From the NCBI RefSeq assembly GCF_000003815.2, contig NC_049981.1:22858255-22922254 (forward strand): DNA of 64,000 bases. Direction: 5' to 3'. Every line of letters starts with the position of its first letter. Position 1 is the stretch's first letter. The notes under the pieces are model-generated. The model ran no database searches and was not told the DNA's origin. It saw nothing but the letters and a program-made list of their open reading frames with translations. The translations under genes were made by a program, and so were the position numbers. Positions 19,408-63,806 of the stretch are shown here, in pieces. The DNA comes from Branchiostoma floridae (Eukaryota > Chordata > Leptocardii > Amphioxiformes > Branchiostomatidae).

Positions 19408-19689
19408 AATACACATCTGGCACTGCCGCCGTTCACACCAATACACACCCAATACACACACGGCTTTTGAATAACAATCGACAGAAATTCGCCAAATGAA
19501 CTACCCCGTTTCTTTGTAAAAATCCGCACTAAAATCGACCTAATTTTACAAAAATGTGTAGACCACAAAACAGTGCTATAAAGAGTGAGATTTGTTGTGA
19601 AAACTCTACAAGGTAGAACACAAAGTTAGGCAAATAGAAACGGCCGCGGCGCGAGGCCGTGTTTTGGCGGTACCGAGAGCCAATACACA
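19408..19689 (-). promoter_or_regulatory. FoxH1-site cluster A downstream of Pitx
   Basis: Four exact AATACACA octamers at 19408, 19440, 19451 and 19682 lie within 282 bp, all in the same orientation. A CAGAC Smad box is at 19383. The block is about 7 kb past the Pitx stop codon. It looks like a second candidate FoxH1/Smad-responsive element. No alternative explanation such as a microsatellite fits, because the sites sit in unrelated flanking sequence. Confidence 0.5.
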
Positions 19690-21107
19690 CCGCAAACTCG
19701 CCGACATACGCCGTCGTCTGGCCTCTAATTTTCACGATAACGAGATAAATATTTCCCACATCTTACAATTACTTTGTAAATATACTGGCAATGAAAGGAA
19801 ATAAATTTTGGGGACGTTTGAAGGCATTTAATTGTGAAAGAATCGTAGTTATTGTTGATGAGTTGTGTATATTCGAGTACCGGCTTTGTTGTATCTATTT
19901 CTGCGACTGAAAATAGGGATACACGATGTTTAGTCAACATTTCCGCAACAATACAGGAGTTTTTCACACTCAAACGTCACAGCACGGCAGCGACAATAGA
20001 TTCACAGGGTTCTGAAAGTCAAAACGCGGGTCAGCCGGTCAGGGATTTTTGGAATTCGTGCCATTTCAATGCCAACTGACCTCAACTTTTGCCACAGCCG
20101 TATTGTGTATGTCAAGTTATAGTGGAGTCAAAAATAGCGGTCTATACTTCAAAATATTAACAGAACTTTCTGTTTTTTATTTGAGGTGAAACCAAGAACA
20201 CTCTGAATACACTTTTAGTGATGAGGCAAGTTTGTGGTTTACAAATAGTGGAGTTCTAGAATTTTTGGGGTCATGTTAGAAAGCCTGAGTCTGTATTTCA
20301 CTATTTGACATTACTACCAAACTCTTTTTTTTTAATTGCTACTCAAACTAGACATTTCTGAGGCCAGTTTTTACACATGTGGGTTTAGGGGAATACGGAC
20401 AATATACAAATACTCTAGCTAGGGAAAAACAACTTAGAAATCTTTCAATAAATGATGATTTGAGACCCACTAACCTTACATTTTTGGTTTCCAAAATGGC
20501 GGGCCGTGAGGCTGTTGAGTTTTCAAACAAAACCATGCCATACTACAAACGGTACATATCCCCGCATATTCCGCTTACCTTCTGATTCAAACACGAGAAA
20601 TTATTCCAAGGTTTCTTTCCATTCCATCCCACCATTATAGAACGGAACGGCTGAAATTTGGTCAGGCTGGCACAGGGCATGTACCCGGAATGACCGGGCT
20701 TTGACTGGATTAACAGAAATGAATTCACCAACTCGATTTCGACCCCATAAATCTTACTTACTTTTGTATACAGGTAGACTGACTGGGTCCGACGAATCCG
20801 ACGTGCCACGGTGTCTTGCACATCTCTTGGTCCTTACAACAACATCCACACACATCCAAGGAATTCATATCAAGAGGATTTGGTGTGTGAAAACAATAAG
20901 AAGTTTTCGCACTCTACAAAAACTGCACTAGTCACAACAAGGCGGCGGTACTACAACTGTAAGACTGTGGGCGGGTGGTAAAAGCGGTGTTTACCCAGCC
21001 CAGGTCTCTGCGATAATAAAGCGAATTGTCGACGAATAATCATGATAATCGTTTGTCTACCGTTCTGGGGGCACATTATAACATGAATGGCGGGTAGACG
21101 GCGTGGA

Positions 21108-21245
21108 TGTGTATTACGTTTTGCGGGACGGCTGTCTGTGTTTTGATAACCAGTCGCACACCCGTGGAAAAGAGCCGGTTTAGTCGTGGCCGCGCCAGAC
21201 GCATAAATACATATGATCAAGCGGTCTTACCTGCGGATGTGTATT
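21108..21245 (+). promoter_or_regulatory. FoxH1-site pair B
   Basis: TGTGTATT occurs at 21108-21115 and 21238-21245, 130 bp apart. Both are preceded by GGA (GGATGTGTATT), and a GTCTG Smad-type box lies between them near 21133. The extended shared flank suggests a duplicated or selected site. Confidence 0.35.
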
Positions 21246-23833
21246 CCCCCTGCTAGGAAAATTAGCTCGCTAACTGCCTCTAGAAACGGGGTGCAAATTG
21301 TGAAACAAAAAACGGAAGGACAACACTTGCGAACTGGGCGCTGTAGGAAGCCTGTGTGAATGGATGAGTACCAACCGGAGACAACCTTATCTGCCAGACC
21401 CGCCATGGTGAAGGCACTTCACTTCAAAATCAAACACTTCAAACCAACAAACCTAGCCAAACTTTTCTCGTCTTTCGTCTCCCGTTTCAGGAAATAGAAT
21501 AGTCTTACGTTTTCCCATGACCAATTGGTAAGTATCTGGTGGAAGGATCTTCGCTGTAACTGTGGACAGGAATGAAGACAAGCGGGTCATGTTATTTGGT
21601 AAGTGTGTCCAGGAGAGGGGTAGAGAAATAAAAAATGGCCGTTATCGGGCGAGAACACCAAGCTATCATACGTTCAATTGGTTGTACTTTGTCTGTTATA
21701 TCTCAACAACACCTTAATGGCGCAAATATGTGCTTCTCTGACCTAGACACGCTTTCTGTTGGTCTCTGGCTCAAACTAGAGCCGAGTTTGGGTCTACATT
21801 CGTTGCTTAAATTTTGTGAGCGCCAATTGAAGCCATACAAGTGCGGCGAAAACATGTCAACAACATGGTGTAAAAACCTTACCTTTCTTCAACAGACCTG
21901 CCCTACGTGAGCCTTAAAAATGTCTTAAGTCACAGGCCAGACCACGGCTTGTCTTAGGATGTACAGCTAAGCCCAATTTACTCCTTACATCGTCCCTGCA
22001 GAAGAACTTAAGGACGATAATAAAATGCCCGCCTCCAGAAACTATCCCGAGCTGAGCGTTTACAATAAATCACAGTGGGTCCTGTAATCTCACCAATTCT
22101 CGTCCTTACATCCCTCGCTTTAAACAGCTAGTTCCTCCCGAATTTACGGCAAATCTTCGCCTGCAAAGTTGTCTTAACTCTGAACCATTTCAATAGACAC
22201 GGGGATACAAGCGGTAAGGGTGGGGGGCAAGCGGACTTACCTACAAAACGGCCGAGACACAACTCCTAAGTCTACCAGTGATCCTGTAAATACTGGAGCG
22301 CCGACAGTATTTTGTACCAGGCAACCTTTCTGAATGCTAAATCCATCCATTTAATTCCGATTTCTAAGAGATTGTACGAATGACAAAACATCGTTTGTTT
22401 CTAGTTTAACATAACATACAGTAATATGAATGTATCGATGATTATTTTTCTAACAAAACACGAGTTAGAAATGAACTGTACGCGGTATAGCTAGTCATTT
22501 ATTTGTAGCCTGAAAAAACTACGTTATAGAAATCCACTAGCATTAAAAGACTGCATGTTTTATTTAATACTTGTATTAACTGTGGATTTCTGAGTGGAAT
22601 GGTAGGGTTTAGACCTGGCTTTATATCGTTTTTGAAGGGATTTCGAAACCCATTATCGGCAAAAGTGAACCCATGAAATATTGACACCTTGTGTTAAACA
22701 TACAATTATCAACAGTAACATGGAATAGTTCTGTCCCGTTTTTAAAAGAAACAAAGTATTTTGGAAATAAAACTTATTTTCAATACAAGCGAAATTTAAG
22801 AGATAGATGTTGGTAAATTTGGGACATGATATTATGACGTAATAATGGTAATCAGTATGGGGCAATAATCATACATGTTTTGTCTGTAGCTCGCGCAGAG
22901 AAGCGAGCATTCGCAGGTTCCAAACATGAAAGATTCAGAGCAGAAAATGGCGGCTCCACTACCTCAGGAATCCGACATTTGTACCACATAATCAGGGCAA
23001 ATCGTGCTTAATGGTGTCGGTGATAGTGCGAGACATTTAGAGATGGGAGGGCTAATAGAAACCAATTTGGTGGAATTAAAGCCGAAGAATCTCTTCCCCC
23101 CTCGCCTCCCAGTTCAAAAGGCGGGAAAATCCCGCCGTCTTTACAGATTTGAGAGAGTTAAAAGGTTGTATTTTGTATGATGGCGGTGTAAGGTACGTAC
23201 CTGGTGTTGTAGGCGGTTCTTTTCGGCGTTGGTTCGGTCTCCGCGGTTCTGTGATGTTGGCGGCTAGCTCTGGGCTGTGTACAAAGCATACGCTCCCGGA
23301 CGGGTCACGAAAACAAAATGGCGTCGTCCTCAATGATATGCTATCTAATGGTATAATCTTATTGTCGTCTTTAATTAGCCAGAAAGAATCGAACTTGGCC
23401 GACCGGACGACGACACAGCTGTGGGCGTTTCCCGTTACATCAACAAATTTCCTCCGCTGTTCCGTAAAAGAATATTACTTATCATCTTCTGATTTTTTTC
23501 TTGAATAATTTATCAAGACAATTTACAAACTTGTAAAAATTCAGCTTTCTGTTCATTCGACATCTGCCGATGGCTTAATGGGAGTGTAATACTTATCAAG
23601 TACCCGTGAAAAAGGTATTTGCGTGCCAAAACAAAACCCGGGAATTATAAAACTCAAACTCGATTTTTTTTCTCCCTTTCTTGTGTATGTGACGTGATTT
23701 GGGGGGATTGTTTCCCCTAGGTTCTTGATTTGCATATGAGATAAGCTCTCTGTAGACACGAGAGGTGTACCACACAACATCATTTACCCAGGGCCGCAGC
23801 AATTGTCTCCGTGATAAAGTAGCTGCCCGTGGA

Positions 23834-24340
23834 TGTGTATTGGGGGATTTGAGACGGGATACTGCCTGACAGGGGGAGTCCTCAAGGGGTAAACAGGACT
23901 CCCCTCTTTTTAAAGTGGCGGGGTTAGCGATGAAAACAAACTTTCTGACCCCGACAATATGGCGGCAGTCTGACCAGAGAAAAAAAAGTCGTCTGATTTT
24001 TTTTAACCTCAGTAGTGTCTGACATTTTCTTAAATGGATTTGTAACAATTTTGATTTTTATGTGATATTTCAGAAATTATGGAGAAAGTTTTTTTTTAAT
24101 GCAAACGCGTAACAGGTTACTCTTGAAGGTCAAAAGAGGGGTGGTCTGAAACCGAAGTCGACTGGGTGGGTTGGTACTTTAGAGCGGAGGTCACCGGTAT
24201 TATGACCTTTCGAAAAGTTTATAAAATGTCAGGTGCCAGTTTTTTCCCAAGTACCTGTCATGACGGCTTCTGGATCTTCTTCTCATTTGCCTAATTGTTG
24301 TGTTTTTCTTTCACGCGGCCAGTATCTGGATATGTGTATT
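23834..24340 (+). promoter_or_regulatory. FoxH1-site pair C
   Basis: TGTGTATT occurs at 23834-23841 (in GTGGATGTGTATTGG) and 24333-24340 (in TGGATATGTGTATTGGAGG), about 500 bp apart and 2-3 kb downstream of the predicted Pitx 3' end. CAGAC boxes lie close to the second site. The pair is weaker than clusters A and D. Confidence 0.3.
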
Positions 24341-27039: not shown

Positions 27040-27585
27040 TCAGACGGGCCGGTCGACGGCGTACTGGCAGGCGGAGAGGGTTTGTTGGCGGACGGGGCTC
27101 GGGTAGGAGAAGCTGGACGCGACCGACGTGGAGTGTTGCTTGGCCTTCAGTCGCAGGGCCGCGATACTGGAATTGCACTGCTCACGGTAAGCGTAAGGCT
27201 GCCCGGGGGAGGCGTAGGGGCACGGCGCGACCGTCGGGTTCTGCAGGCTGCTCAGGGAATTCAAGCCGTTGCCGACGTTCATGCTCGGCACCATGGTGGT
27301 GGCGGTGCCGATGGTGGTCGGCGGGGTGAAGCACATGGCCTGAGACGACAGCGGGTTGACGTTGGGCACGCCGCTGGAGTTGAGTCCCCACGGGAAGGAC
27401 TTGGCGGTGAGCGGGCTCGGCACCTTCGCCGCCCAGTTGTTGTAGGCCGGCGAGTAGCCGGAGTACAGTCCGTCGTCGAACGGTTGCATCAACCCGTTGA
27501 AGTGAGGACCGAAGCCGTTCTTGAATTCTCCCAGCTGATTTCGCTCGCGCTTCCGCCACTTGGCCCGCCGGTTCTTGAACCAGAC
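27040..27585 (-). CDS. Pitx: Pitx last coding exon (end of homeodomain, OAR, stop)
   Basis: This exon encodes the last 181 residues of a Pitx paired-class homeodomain transcription factor, a nuclear DNA-binding regulator of left-right, oral and pituitary development in chordates. It opens after a strong acceptor (T-rich tract, then GCCGACAG) with [17 protein letters not shown], which is homeodomain residues 47-60 plus flank. The lysine after WF is position 50, giving bicoid-class specificity for TAATCC. Next come the Pitx-typical stretches [16 protein letters not shown] and YNNWAAK. An OAR motif ([14 protein letters not shown]) is at exon residues 139-152, about 27130-27171. The protein ends [11 protein letters not shown], as in vertebrate Pitx proteins, and TGA is at 27042-27040. 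The exon is GC-rich, unlike the introns, which creates long antisense frames that are only shadows. The intron before it falls between homeodomain residues 46 and 47 in phase 0, the usual paired-class position. Pitx identity is nearly certain; the species is inferred. Confidence 0.97.
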
Positions 27586-30433
<2,848 letters not shown>

Positions 30434-30638
30434 CTCCGGAGCCGTGAGTGGAGTCCATGCTGCTATCTGTCCCGGCCATGCTGGTGTGAGCTCCCGCTAC
30501 CGCCGTGCTGTCCAATGCGCTGCCCGTACTTGTGCCACTGTTGTTGATCGGCGCCATCCCGGCCATAGTCAGTTGGCTTCTCCGTGGGCTTACGCTCACA
30601 AGCTGCTCTAAGCTCAGCGAGTCGTTCAAGGTGTCCAT
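30434..30638 (-). CDS. Pitx: Pitx proximal alternative first coding exon (PITX1-like N-terminus)
   Basis: An ATG at 30638 opens 68 codons plus one leftover G before a donor (GGAG|GTACAG). It splices in phase 1 to the homeobox exon 1.0 kb downstream and would give a protein of about 332 residues. The start MDTLNDSLSLEQL resembles the vertebrate PITX1 start (MD-hydrophobic..SLERL), which supports the frame. The remainder is low-complexity Ser/Thr/Gly/Ala/Met sequence. Two in-frame stops (TGATGA) abut the ATG on its 5' side, so this exon must initiate translation and cannot be read through from an upstream exon. An out-of-frame ATG overlaps the start (ATGAATGG). The upstream DNA is GC-rich with a CRE and a CCAAT box, consistent with its own promoter. 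I see the ORF, the donor and the phase; expression is inferred. Confidence 0.85.
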
Positions 30639-30639
30639 T

Positions 30640-31000
30640 CATCAATTATTATGGATTAAGTTTTTAGCTCGGTTAACGATGGGAACGGTGCACTGTGCTG
30701 CGATGTCAGGAATGCCAGGTCTTTCCCCGTACGGCGTCCGACACGAGCTGGCGGAGCGGCCGATCTGTCGACGAACGATAAATCAAGAACGACGAAGCGA
30801 CGGGAACGACATACTCGCACTGCACGATGTCCTCCTTAGATATGTTTGTAATCGGCTTATGGTCGCTTAGCCCGAGATCTATGCGCGGGATGTGCAACTC
30901 CCCTGTCTATTTGAGCATGTTGGTGATGACGTCACGACACCAACCTCCCCATCCCAGCTTGCACCGCGCGCGCCGCCATGAACCAATCACTGCGCGTCCC
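30640..31000 (-). promoter_or_regulatory. Candidate promoter of the proximal Pitx transcript
   Basis: Upstream of the proximal ATG the DNA turns CpG-rich. It carries a perfect CRE palindrome TGACGTCA at 30927-30934 and a CCAAT box at 30983-30987, about 290-350 bp before the start codon, followed by a GCGCGC-rich block. No TATA box is visible. The arrangement resembles a TATA-less CpG promoter for the proximal isoform. Confidence 0.5.
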
Positions 31001-31450
31001 CAAATCTCTTCCTAATTTGATTTCCCTCACTCCGACTGGAATGACCGGACAGATAGCGATGCAAAACTTACTATTTTGCCGCTCTAATTGCGCTGGGAAC
31101 ACAAGACAAACCCTCAACAAAATTGTCGGACAGCGAGAGAACATAAACAAGACTGTTTACATCGGGTTTGGCGAACACACCCGAGGTATGATCAAAATGT
31201 CGTCTGCAGATTTGCGGAGTTAGTCAGAAGTCGGCGCGCTCGGACCCCGAACGGTCTGGTAACGCCACCATGGCGTCGGTACTGCATCGACAGGCTGCGG
31301 CTTCCACCTCCACCCGTCAAACCACGCCGCCTATGGTGAACCTACCGCTATACAGCTTATACTACACAGCACCCCACACGCTAACTTTTATTCTTAGTTT
31401 TTTCCTTCTCCGAGTCGTGCTGATTTTTTTTAGCTCGAGTCAAGTACCGA

Positions 31451-31488
31451 CACCTGTCAGTTTTTCTCTGTACTTAACTTGACAGGTG
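31451..31488. promoter_or_regulatory. Inverted pair of CACCTGTCA motifs
   Basis: CACCTGTCA (31451-31459) and its exact reverse complement TGACAGGTG (31480-31488) form a 9-bp inverted repeat with a 20-bp spacer. Each half joins a Snail/ZEB E-box (CACCTG) to a TGIF/Meis core (CTGTCA). It adjoins FoxH1 cluster D. Confidence 0.4.
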
Positions 31489-31543
31489 CAACAAACAGGT
31501 AAACACTTGTGCTCGGGAAAAACTCCTCCCCTGTCCCACACGG

Positions 31544-32294
31544 AATACACAACAGCTCCCCGGGACTTAACCCCAGTCTGAATAGACAACACACCTTGAA
31601 GTATGGGGGATAAACACTTTTAAAGAACACTGATTAACATTATATTAAAACGAAACGAGCGAGGAGGGGCACACAATAAGTCCCCCATGGAGAATATTAT
31701 CTCTGGGCTTTATCTTTTCTTCCCATCAATACACAAACTGACCTGTCTGATGTGGGAAGAAGTTTCGCGCCGAAATAATTTCCATGTCTACAGTTTCTTA
31801 TCTCTGGGTTTTATGACAGAAAATTAACGGGTTTTCTCCCGTTTTCAAGTGGTGTTTGAGAGAATCTAGTCCGGATATTTCGGGCATGTTGTTAGAACAG
31901 TAATAACACCTGCGCGGATGGCCAGTGGGCTTACTTAACTCAACAATACTGACCTAACCCTACTTAACAAACCAAGATTTCCTTATCTGCCACGTTTCCA
32001 CCGGACGGTATCCATAAGAGATGCCTGGCCCGAGGGCCCGACGTGTCAATCATTTTAGTCATAACAAAGACTGGGGCCGAGATGGAAAATCCCAACACCA
32101 GACGGACTTCATAACTTCGAAATAACTGTCTATTATCTCTAACGAGATGTTTCCTATTACACCACACACGCAGACATGAACAAATTAGCGTGGAAACGCG
32201 GAGAGAAGTGGCGGAGAGGATGTACGCTTTTGACTTTGGAGAACCCGTACCGGCTACGGTCAATACACATGGTAATACACATCTCCAATACACA
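31544..32294 (-). promoter_or_regulatory. FoxH1-site cluster D: candidate Nodal-responsive left-side enhancer
   Basis: Five exact AATACACA octamers (TGTGTATT on the gene strand) lie at 31544, 31728, 32262, 32274 and 32287. The last three are spaced only 12-13 bp apart, and all have the same orientation. TGT(G/T)(G/T)ATT is the FoxH1 consensus. Smad-type CAGAC/GTCTG boxes are at 31745, 32099, 32171 and 32359, and an Nkx2-type TCAAGTGG is at 31845-31852. Known vertebrate Pitx2 left-side enhancers (ASE) combine FoxH1 and Nkx2 sites. The cluster sits about 1-1.7 kb upstream of the proximal start codon, inside the intron of the longer transcripts. Function is inferred. Confidence 0.6.
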
Positions 32295-35200
32295 CCCCGG
32301 GCGCATACCGACTGTAGCGGGCGGGGCCACAAACAACTTAAACAAAGGCTAAAGCAAACAGACCAGAGAGAAAAAGCTTCACACCCACTCAATAATACCC
32401 ATAAAACCACTGTATTTGCCCAAGAATGAAATCGGCTAAATAACCTCAAATACTAGTAATTGGCGACCGATTTGATTGTGTTATGGTGATTTCCTCATAG
32501 AATGAATTAAATGTTTTCAACACTATCCCACCTCCCTACTTTCTGCTAGTTTAATTGTTGTTTTAATGGATTCTTAAAACTTTATGTCGCACAAAAATGG
32601 CCAGCTACTAGTAGTTTATAAATGAAAGTTACCATGAACTGTGCAACAGACAAGTTTCGTGGTGTAGGTACAAATTAGTTTGATATGAGAAAAATGTGGA
32701 AAAAAAAGAGCAAGACAAGTTTGACTATCTGATCAGCTTGAGCCGGTAACTATAACAAGCCCTCATAAATGTGTATGGTTATTTTCTAGTGTCCCCAATG
32801 GCGGAGTCATCGCTGTAATTAGCCTGGGTTGGGATTGATTGGGAGGGGCTAGGGTTTGTTCCGTATCTAACCAAATATCTCATAACATAAGCGCGGCGGA
32901 CAATTGAATTACGGCCTCCAATTTTCCCAACAGAAAATCACGTTAGGGTTGAAAGATTAGATTTGCGCTCGTGAAAAGGTCTCCTTCAGTGTCCCATCCA
33001 TTGCCCTATTCTCTGCCAGACGAAATCGCATTTCCCCTATACCTTGTGGTGGAAACCCAGGCGGGGGTTTAGGAAACACACACACACGCCAGGCGCTCGG
33101 AAACATGAAACGAATCCTCCGCGCCACCTCTTCCCCTCTCCGACTTTACAGGTACACCAATTACTAGCTTAAGACCTCCTTCAATTAAGCTGATATGTCT
33201 CGTTAGTTGACTTCCGGAGAAGGGAGGGGGCTTGAACCCTGGGTCCTGTCAAAATTAAGAAGCTTGGTGCTATTTAGGGCGCTGGTGAAGATATCTGTCC
33301 GTAGCGACAGCTGGCTGAGGCTTGTTCGATTACATCTTCTCCTCTTCCCAATATGTTCCACATGGTCCCCTCCCCACCACTAGCCTCTCTCCCGATCAGA
33401 GCACATTGGGATCAACCCATAATCCTTGTGAGAAGCTATCCAGTTACATTTCCTCATCAATAATAAGCAAGGCAGAGAAAAATGACTAAGTTGGTGGTCC
33501 CTCCGACAGAAACACTGCCCCGACCAGAATGCAATTGGGAGACAAAGTAAAAAGAAAGCCGCCAGATTGACGTTTTATTTTTCTTTCTAAACTAGGAAGG
33601 GAGGAACTTAAGGGGTCAGGCCGAGGGGTTGAAAACGACCCTTGGATGTTTAGAAGGGAATAAACACGGCACTTGGGTTAATACAGAGGAGGCATCTTTA
33701 TTTGTATACATAGCTGCGAGACCAGGATTAGAGTGTTATTCCTACACAGCCTGAATCAAGCTATGGAAATTCAAACGGGAGGTTTAAGAAAAGTCAACAG
33801 TTGGGAACTTCGGTAATGCACACCGCGGGGATGGTGCTCCCATGAAATCTCACTAGACGAAAACAAGACGAGTAAGCCAATTTCCGGGCAAATGCTTTAA
33901 GATGAAATCGACGTGTGAAATTGACAGGTATGTTCGTTTGTAGAAACCTGCGGTGACATCAGGGCGACAAGAATCGGGACTAGTACTAGTGGGACGGGCT
34001 TTGCTGACAGAGAAGGCTCTCTAATTCGAAGAAGCTGTACAAATCTGTCGGTAAATAGCCTTCTACACAAGCGAAAACTTTCCATTAATCCACGTGAAAT
34101 CCAGACGATTTTATCCAATTTGAGTTTAATAAGTTTTGTCTGGGTCGGACCCGAGTTTCGCGGTTTAGACAGACCCTCCGAATTACCCCGTGTCAAGTAC
34201 GGGACCACGCCAAGTCTGCTCCACCCTCATTACATTCTCCATCACCGCAAACGAAATCTATCAAGTCCTTCATCCTAAACGAAACGGATTGGCTATTTTC
34301 GTTTTCTGAGTGTGATAGCGAACGGGCAAAATCATCGGGCTTTGCAGCAAAGTCGCCAGTAAGTCCGACTAAGGCAGAGATATTATTTATTTTATTTAGT
34401 ATATCCCCGCGTATATTCGAGGGAGATAGAGAGACAAGCCTCTTGCGGTCTTTGCCAATCTAGATGAATAAGGGCACTAAACCGGGCACAAGATTGTTTT
34501 TATCTTTGATAGAAAGGTGGAACAGTTTACTTCTGCGTTTGTTGGAAAGCCGGGCTCATTTGTGGAGTAACTGTCTGGGGTTTGTGTTGAAGAGCCTCTG
34601 AACAAGGTATTGCATTGTGGAAATGTACAAACAGTGATTGTAAGAAAAACCCCTAACGAGCGGCGGTGAGCCCCGTGAATTACCGAGGCCGGGTTAAAGT
34701 CTTACCGTGCAGTATGCTCGTGCTGAGAGCCCGGACTGCCGGCCTGTTTGGCCAGGGATTTAGGCGCGCGAAGCCGGGGATATCCAACTGTCGGGCCGGT
34801 GCAGCGCCCAGGGATTCCCGGGGATGTTTGCCTGCATTACAAACCCATCAGGGTGCCCATTAACTGCTATTTTTCTTGCAAATGGTAACGCTAATGAGAA
34901 ATAAAGGTGCTCTAATCCGTTTAAAACTACCTGATAGTTGCCGTGTTTGTGAAAACGAACTTAACGCCCCCTTGCTATTTATCTTGACCGGAAAATGCAT
35001 GAGAGAAGATTCTTTATTTCTCTTTTTATCTGTTCACGTCTTTCCTCTTTTCGCTGTTCCTTTCTTCACTGTGTCAGAGAAAGCCCGACCAAAAAGCGGA
35101 CTGATACTGCAGCAGATGGAGAGAGAGCGCGATGGCAGGCCACGGTAAGCTCCCTTCATAAATATTTCTCTCAACTTGACAGTGGGGGGTAGAAAACGAA

Positions 35201-63577: not shown

Positions 63578-63806
63578 CTGGCGTGATATCGTCGGTGCGG
63601 GGGACGCAGGGGGACTCGGCTCCGCCTTCCAGCGAGGTTGGCCCGAGGGAGTCTTCGTCCGAAGCGCTGGGGGTGATCGGGCGGGCGGTGCCGTCGGTGG
63701 TCCCGCCGAGCCCTGTTGCTGCGGCCGCGGCCATCCCGAGCGCTGCCGGGTGCGGCTTCACGTCACTGCTAGACGCCATCCAGTCCTGGGGCTGAGACAG
63801 AAACAT
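63578..63806 (-). CDS. Pitx: Pitx distal 5' coding exon
   Basis: This exon encodes up to 76 residues (MFLSQPQDWMASSSDVKP, an Ala/Gly stretch, ITPSASDEDSLGP, then PRTDDITP). It leaves one G before a consensus donor (CCAG|GTGAGA), so it splices in phase 1 to the homeobox exon 34 kb away. The Ser/Asp/Glu-rich acidic end resembles the region before the homeodomain in vertebrate Pitx proteins. The 5' boundary is ambiguous. The first ATG (63806) has an in-frame TGA three codons upstream and a good -3 A, so the exon may begin in the 5' UTR. Alternatively TTTCTGTCTCAG|CCCC is a plausible acceptor at 63792/63791, with a branch-like CTGAC upstream. In that case translation would start at the inner ATG (63779, MASSSDVKP) or in an exon outside the window. 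Predicted proteins are about 340 or 331 residues. Confidence 0.82.

Follow-up and report, generated by a model that had tools for sequence, protein, structure and literature searches.

A cluster of FoxH-type sites beside the amphioxus Pitxc promoter as a candidate Nodal-responsive enhancer

Introduction

The amphioxus Pitx locus raises the question of which piece of DNA links Nodal signaling to the left-sided expression of Pitx in an early-branching chordate. Two amphioxus isoforms are described, of which Pitxc is left-sided from N1 and Pitxa/b is not asymmetric (PMC8377849). In amniotes, the known asymmetric enhancers (ASEs) are reported in intron 1 of Nodal, upstream of Lefty, and in intron 2 of Pitx2 (PMC9634164). 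The original prediction for the 64-kb window analyzed here (the whole stretch of DNA, in which positions without a contig name are counted) proposed one short segment as a candidate left-side Pitx enhancer with FoxH1, Smad, and Nkx2 sites. Our analysis bears out the Pitx gene, the FoxH1-type sites, a FoxH gene in the genome, an enrichment of the same site at Nodal and Lefty, and the adjoining Pitxc promoter, but not the Smad and Nkx2 components. On the evidence of sequence, we regard the cluster as probably an ASE-like, Nodal/FoxH-responsive candidate enhancer of the Pitxc promoter, although we hold this view with some reserve. The result is a concrete piece of 750 bp with five defined sites as a candidate link from Nodal to left-sided Pitx in amphioxus; if the enhancer works, the logic of the vertebrate asymmetric enhancers predates the vertebrates. 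The literature searched, with most subscription papers and all supplements beyond reach, describes no FoxH-site element at amphioxus Pitx.

Results and Discussion

The cluster adjoins the promoter of the left-sided isoform

We take the homeodomain encoded by the exons at 29149-29396 and 27040-27585 to be that of Pitx. Together with the match to the published TALEN restriction sites (SacI, AatII, and TatI), it identifies the gene in the window as Pitx, transcribed from the minus strand, as had been predicted. The splice ends of the exons listed in Table 1 were set from consensus and phase. Among the Pitx coding exons of the window, SacI cuts only at 30488, in the proximal exon, and the distal exon is without a SacI site. 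Because this site identifies the adjoining first exon as that of Pitxc, the cluster lies at the left-sided promoter, 0.9-1.7 kb upstream of the Pitxc ATG and beside the unit from which the asymmetric isoform is transcribed. That the position of the cluster hints at which isoform is asymmetric was therefore a correct suggestion, the left-sidedness of Pitxc being already known from expression data. If our reading is true, the sites help explain why left-sidedness is confined to Pitxc and does not extend to Pitxa/b. Mutants of Pitxc are reported to have no left-right defect, for which a hypomorph is one explanation offered by the authors (PMC8377849).

Table 1. Features of the Pitx window, in positions of the window
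Feature	Position	Strand	Basis or remark
Last shared Pitx coding exon, homeobox end	27040..27585	-	TatI at 27462 as TALEN3
Shared Pitx exon, first part of homeobox	29149..29396	-	AatII at 29323 as TALEN2
First coding exon of Pitxc, proximal (ATG at 30638)	30434..30638	-	Consensus and phase; SacI at 30488 as TALEN1
Distal coding exon, taken as Pitxa/b	63578..63806	-	Without SacI; donor phase fits shared exon
Candidate FoxH-responsive enhancer of Pitxc	31544..32294	.	Site clustering and single genome match
FoxH-type site AATACACA	31544..31551	+	Word search
FoxH-type site AATACACA, preceded by C	31728..31735	+	GTCTG from 31745, 9 bases between
Cluster core, three AATACACA (32262, 32274, 32287)	32262..32294	+	Word search; non-repeat triple genome-wide
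GGCGC	32300..32304	+	5 bases beyond last FoxH-type site
TCAAGTGG, Nkx2-like	31845..31852	+	Not above chance
Five GATA-type AGATAA (TTATCT on +), 31697, 31710, 31798, 31983, 32133	31697..32138	-	Motif count
Second cluster, four AATACACA (19408, 19440, 19451, 19682)	19408..19689	+	≈7.4 kb beyond the last Pitx coding exon
AATACACATCCACG, exact 14-mer, three copies	29973..29986; 21102..21115; 23828..23841	+; -; -	Exact search

Five FoxH-type sites are clustered beyond chance

Five identical copies of AATACACA lie in the segment, as predicted, at 31544, 31728, 32262, 32274, and 32287, all on the plus strand, and the starts of the last three are 12 and 13 bp apart in one orientation. The word is a match to the FoxH1 site in its GT form. 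It occurs 20 times in the window against 3.16 expected, a number that 0 of 100 dinucleotide shuffles reach; under Markov orders 1-5, the expectation ranges from 2.8 to 9.3, and the observed count exceeds the expectation under all backgrounds tried. When the 20 window sites are placed at random, five fall within 751 bp with P = 0.0013 and three within 33 bp with P = 0.00075, and two or more FoxH1-type sites thus stand close together at Pitx beyond chance. In the stretch upstream of the Pitxc ATG (30640-34600), whose bounds were picked after the sites were known, AATACACA ranks 2nd among 3,658 8-mers, with five sites against an expectation of 0.31 per ≈4 kb. Across the whole 64-kb window, it is only 30th among 13,871 enriched 8-mers. 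These and all later 8-mer rankings use a background of 108 kb from which the forkhead stretches are excluded.

Such a cluster could also be a functionless by-product of repeats or base composition, an origin that we consider very unlikely. A genome-wide search for three AATACACA words with gaps of 0-30 gave 166 overlapping matches, compared with 62 for the reversed control. Forty rows were chosen by eye among the matches listed, at one or two per distinct place, and the 28 that were measured comprise 16 with alike spacers (tandem arrays), 6 that are CA-rich, and 6, from 5 places, that are neither. Arrays of these two kinds thus make up 22 of the 28 measured rows, which favors the by-product reading, as does the occurrence of a longer form of the site, the 13-mer CCAATACACATCC, within an apparent dispersed element. 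The cluster at Pitxc differs from such arrays, however. Its spacers are unequal and Tandem Repeats Finder has no entry inside it, and we reject a tandem-repeat origin on both counts; a query of 31300-32500 against its own genome (513 Mb in 431 contigs) matches solely itself, and with one genome match only, a dispersed repeat or a second haplotype copy is likewise rejected as the source. The enrichment also holds across loci of one pathway, as described below.

Two of the five non-repeat places among the 28 rows measured are at Pitx (32262-32294 and 19408-19458), 13 kb apart. Open frames read around the triples at C2:16036244 and C5:23338586 (contig:position) revealed no neighbor gene linkable to Nodal, and the non-repeat triple at C5:10814589 adjoins a CA array. 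The triple at C9:5201293 was set aside because by eye it resembles a degenerate repeat.

The 13-mer CCAATACACATCC is found 70 times in the genome, compared with 13 times for the reversed control; three copies lie in 288 bp beside Lefty and one lies at Pitx, and the five-site cluster contains none. It also occurs 2.6 and 3.4 kb from two homeobox exons without obvious Nodal link, one presumably divergent and one Emx-like. Because it is found at these exons and in the apparent dispersed element as well, CCAATACACATCC is not specific, and we discarded it as a marker of Nodal targets across the genome. At seven places, two copies stand in opposite orientation 23-38 kb apart, as if near the two ends of a large dispersed element (C5:14123996/14154078, C6:8439983/8478111, C8:8659291/8686872, C9:20053641/20082310, C10:9558991/9587136, C11:9654755/9678830, and C239:52/23327).

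The genome encodes a FoxH protein with the key residue of helix 3

Cephalochordates are reported to have known FoxH1 orthologues (PMC7535936). A forkhead search of the genome listed 42 matches, and among the 20 places read, 17 had a readable forkhead stretch. At C6:12309593 (-), the second exon of the domain is closest to the FoxH1 chains of the PDB (E value of 1e-23; next forkhead, 1e-17). Helix 3 of this protein carries an Asp (GWKDSVRHNL), whereas an Asn occupies the position in 12 of the 12 other forkhead translations that cover it. Only FoxH1 is described as having this Asp, and the residue as key to the reading of both GG and GT sites (PMC9701222). In helix 2, the amphioxus protein has a His (KEIHEALK, by eye), which is neither the usual Tyr nor the Leu/Ile that takes its place in vertebrate FoxH1 (PMC9701222). 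According to the same source, the GT site TGTGTATT is highly represented in FoxH1 ChIP peaks, and FoxH1 prefers G-C at position 13, a preference that we match to a C preceding AATACACA.

A plausible mechanism follows the vertebrate scheme. On the left side, Nodal would activate Smad2/3, FoxH at the AATACACA sites would bring in the Smads, and Pitxc would be switched on; the three core sites, about one helical turn apart, could make binding cooperative and threshold-like. Binding of FoxH, recruitment of Smads, and enhancer activity at the cluster are each what the sites lead us to predict.

The same site marks Lefty and, less strongly, Nodal

A stronger point, absent from the original prediction, is that the FoxH-type word found at Pitx also marks Lefty and, less strongly, Nodal in this genome. 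In a TGF-beta search, Nodal was taken as C3:20995940 (-), whose best PDB match is a Nodal/BMP2 chimera (3e-40; next match, 6e-30); a comparison of the Nodal domain with NCBIfam yielded no family. A divergent TGF-beta domain at C279:85044 (-), with weak and mixed PDB matches, we take to be Lefty, a name based on its pairing. It stands head to head with a ligand at C279:92083 (+), and the two start codons are ≈3.96 kb apart. We take the two as Lefty and Gdf1/3-like because a head-to-head pair of these genes ≈4 kb apart is described in amphioxus (PMC10794066).

AATACACA occurs 20 times in 64 kb at Pitx, 7 times in 20 kb at Nodal, and 11 times in 20 kb at Lefty/Gdf1/3-like. Taken together, the three loci hold 38 sites in 104 kb, ≈4.7 times the rate of a background with 10 sites in 128,157 bases, which consists of stretches picked by us or by gene family rather than a random sample of the genome. 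This background leaves out target genes, stretches that overlap other loci, loci selected by motif, and small pieces, and one fetched locus stretch is two thirds N; the 20 kb upstream of four forkhead genes (4 × 5 kb) hold no site. In Nodal and Lefty combined, AATACACA ranks 2nd among 12,989 enriched 8-mers, with 18 observed in 40 kb against 3.9 expected, and AAAATATT ranks 1st. Taken singly, the loci place it 12th of 10,557 8-mers at Lefty and only 285th of 10,565 at Nodal, and the enrichment of the site at the two genes therefore comes mainly through Lefty.

In a stable line, the ≈4 kb between Lefty and Gdf1/3-like are reported to give expression that is asymmetric both dorsoventrally and from left to right. 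At the gastrula, the region is reported to depend on Nodal signaling, SB505124 lowering Lefty-Gdf1/3-like reporters at the G1 stage (PMC10794066). The corresponding stretch here, with bounds taken from that publication, holds five AATACACA between the two start codons, where 0.31 would be expected per 4 kb, and in the 4,844 bases around the intergenic region (C279:86001-90845) the word ranks 11th of 4,311 8-mers. Unlike the Pitxc cluster with its three sites in 33 bp, the Lefty-Gdf1/3-like sites are spread over ≈4 kb. The main text of PMC10794066, as searched, contains no FoxH1 or Smad term.

Just beyond the last Lefty coding exon, C279:84577-84878 carries four AATACACA, three of them as CCAATACACATCC, and the last two of the four form an inverted pair 11 bp apart. 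Nodal also has an inverted pair, at 20999838/20999860 (C3:20999838-20999867), between the first two coding exons as read; the same stretch carries an open frame that is retroelement-like by eye.

The bases beside the site may differ between the target loci and the background as well. A C precedes AATACACA in 21 of 38 cases at the three loci, compared with 2 of 10 in the background (p = 0.05), and TCC follows it in 11 of 38 compared with 0 of 10. With borderline significance, these flank preferences fit the longer FoxH1 footprint reported in PMC9701222. A single FoxH code, with a GT-type core and preferred flanks (approximately GGATGTGTATTGG), might be common to Nodal, Lefty/Gdf1/3-like, and Pitx at places like those of the vertebrate ASEs (intron 1 of Nodal, the stretch from Lefty to its neighbor, and, within Pitx, upstream of the asymmetric promoter); we advance this proposal tentatively and judge it somewhat more apt to fail than to hold.

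Other FoxH-type sites in the Pitx locus

Fifteen of the 20 AATACACA in the window lie outside the cluster, and other parts of the locus may therefore carry activity. The left-side signal could accordingly be spread over the 3' half, with the cluster at 19.4 kb, single extended sites at 17.8-24.3 kb, and the cluster at Pitxc acting jointly or redundantly, so that the last alone would not be the enhancer; we think this arrangement unlikely. Fifteen of the 20 sites fall within 17.7-32.3 kb (binomial P of 1e-6, for an interval chosen post hoc), and the 19.4 kb cluster, three of whose sites (19408-19458) also fit the genome-wide triple pattern, counts itself among the small number of measured triples that are not repeats. 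Outside the Pitxc cluster, the window has 5 copies of the extended form AATACACATCC, and the cluster has none; the flank extended by TCC is likewise present at Lefty and in other parts of the Pitx locus and not in the cluster. The densest array, however, is the one that adjoins the Pitxc promoter. We infer that the cluster at Pitxc, rather than the 3' cluster, would carry the left-side signal.

The three copies of AATACACATCCACG elsewhere in the locus (Table 1), a 14-mer that extends the FoxH-type site, have unrelated flanks.

Comparison with known asymmetric enhancers

In amphioxus, as in the ASEs described for vertebrate Pitx2, Nodal, and Lefty, FoxH1-type sites are clustered at Pitx, Nodal, and Lefty. 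Their places in amphioxus are between coding exons 1 and 2 of Nodal, from Lefty to Gdf1/3-like, and, at Pitx, between the distal exon and the shared ones. By place, the amphioxus cluster differs from the vertebrate Pitx2 ASE in being located upstream of the Pitxc exon. Yoshida and Saiga are reported to have described, in 2008, an intronic left-right enhancer of Ciona Pitx through which asymmetric Nodal signaling acts on the gene. The form of the site differs as well: the amphioxus word is of the GT form, whereas the figure legend for the amniote ASEs marks AATCCACA first (PMC9634164). This GG form is at the chance level in the window (2 against ≈3 expected), with none in the cluster.

Other motifs in and beside the cluster

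An Nkx2-type site had been claimed among the FoxH-type sites, and TCAAGTGG is indeed present at 31845. Its three occurrences in the window are nevertheless at the chance level (2.15 expected; at least three in 41 of 100 shuffles), and they lend no support to the Nkx2 maintenance part of the reading. In this respect, the amphioxus cluster may be unlike the vertebrate Pitx2 ASE, a site for maintenance by Nkx2 being unsupported in it.

The claimed Smad boxes are in place too, with CAGAC/GTCTG at 31576, 31745, 32099, and 32171, a weak excess over the 1.6 expected from the rate of the window, but Smad boxes within 25 bp of FoxH-type sites are not found beyond chance. CAGAC/GTCTG lies within this distance of AATACACA in 4 of 20 cases at Pitx, compared with 8% at random places, and in 0 of 7 at Nodal and 1 of 11 at Lefty; for GC-type Smad boxes, the values are 3 of 20 at Pitx (10% at random places), 0 of 7, and 0 of 11. 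At Nodal and Lefty such pairs do not exceed chance, and we did not adopt Smad-FoxH pairing as a signature. The GGCGC at 32300 is presumably a possible Smad 5GC box.

The cluster also contains five AGATAA in 751 bp, where 0.66 would be expected at the rate of the window. This excess suggests that the cluster might serve Pitxc as an enhancer or a promoter-proximal element for other factors (GATA, other forkheads) instead of as a Nodal response element, which we consider improbable. In animals without foxh, Foxh1-type sites are, in the view of the authors of PMC12292651, occupied by other Fox proteins. A neurula ATAC-seq study, with amphioxus data at 15, 21, and 36 hpf, also assayed amphioxus Pitx regions in zebrafish, and one of them drove expression in the hatching gland (PMC11136973); this region could already bear on the cluster. 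Binding data for other forkheads argue the other way, with FoxA2 described as weak on the GG site and FoxC2 as having a lower affinity for GT than for TT (PMC9701222), and action by such factors would leave the enrichment at Nodal and Lefty unexplained. We retain the Nodal/FoxH reading of the cluster as a supported candidate.

Two copies of TTATCTCTGGGYTTTAT stand among the GATA-type sites, at 31697 and 31798. Directly upstream of the cluster, at 31451-31488, lies an inverted repeat (CACCTGTCA ... TGACAGGTG), which we take to contain E-box and TGIF/Meis-like cores.
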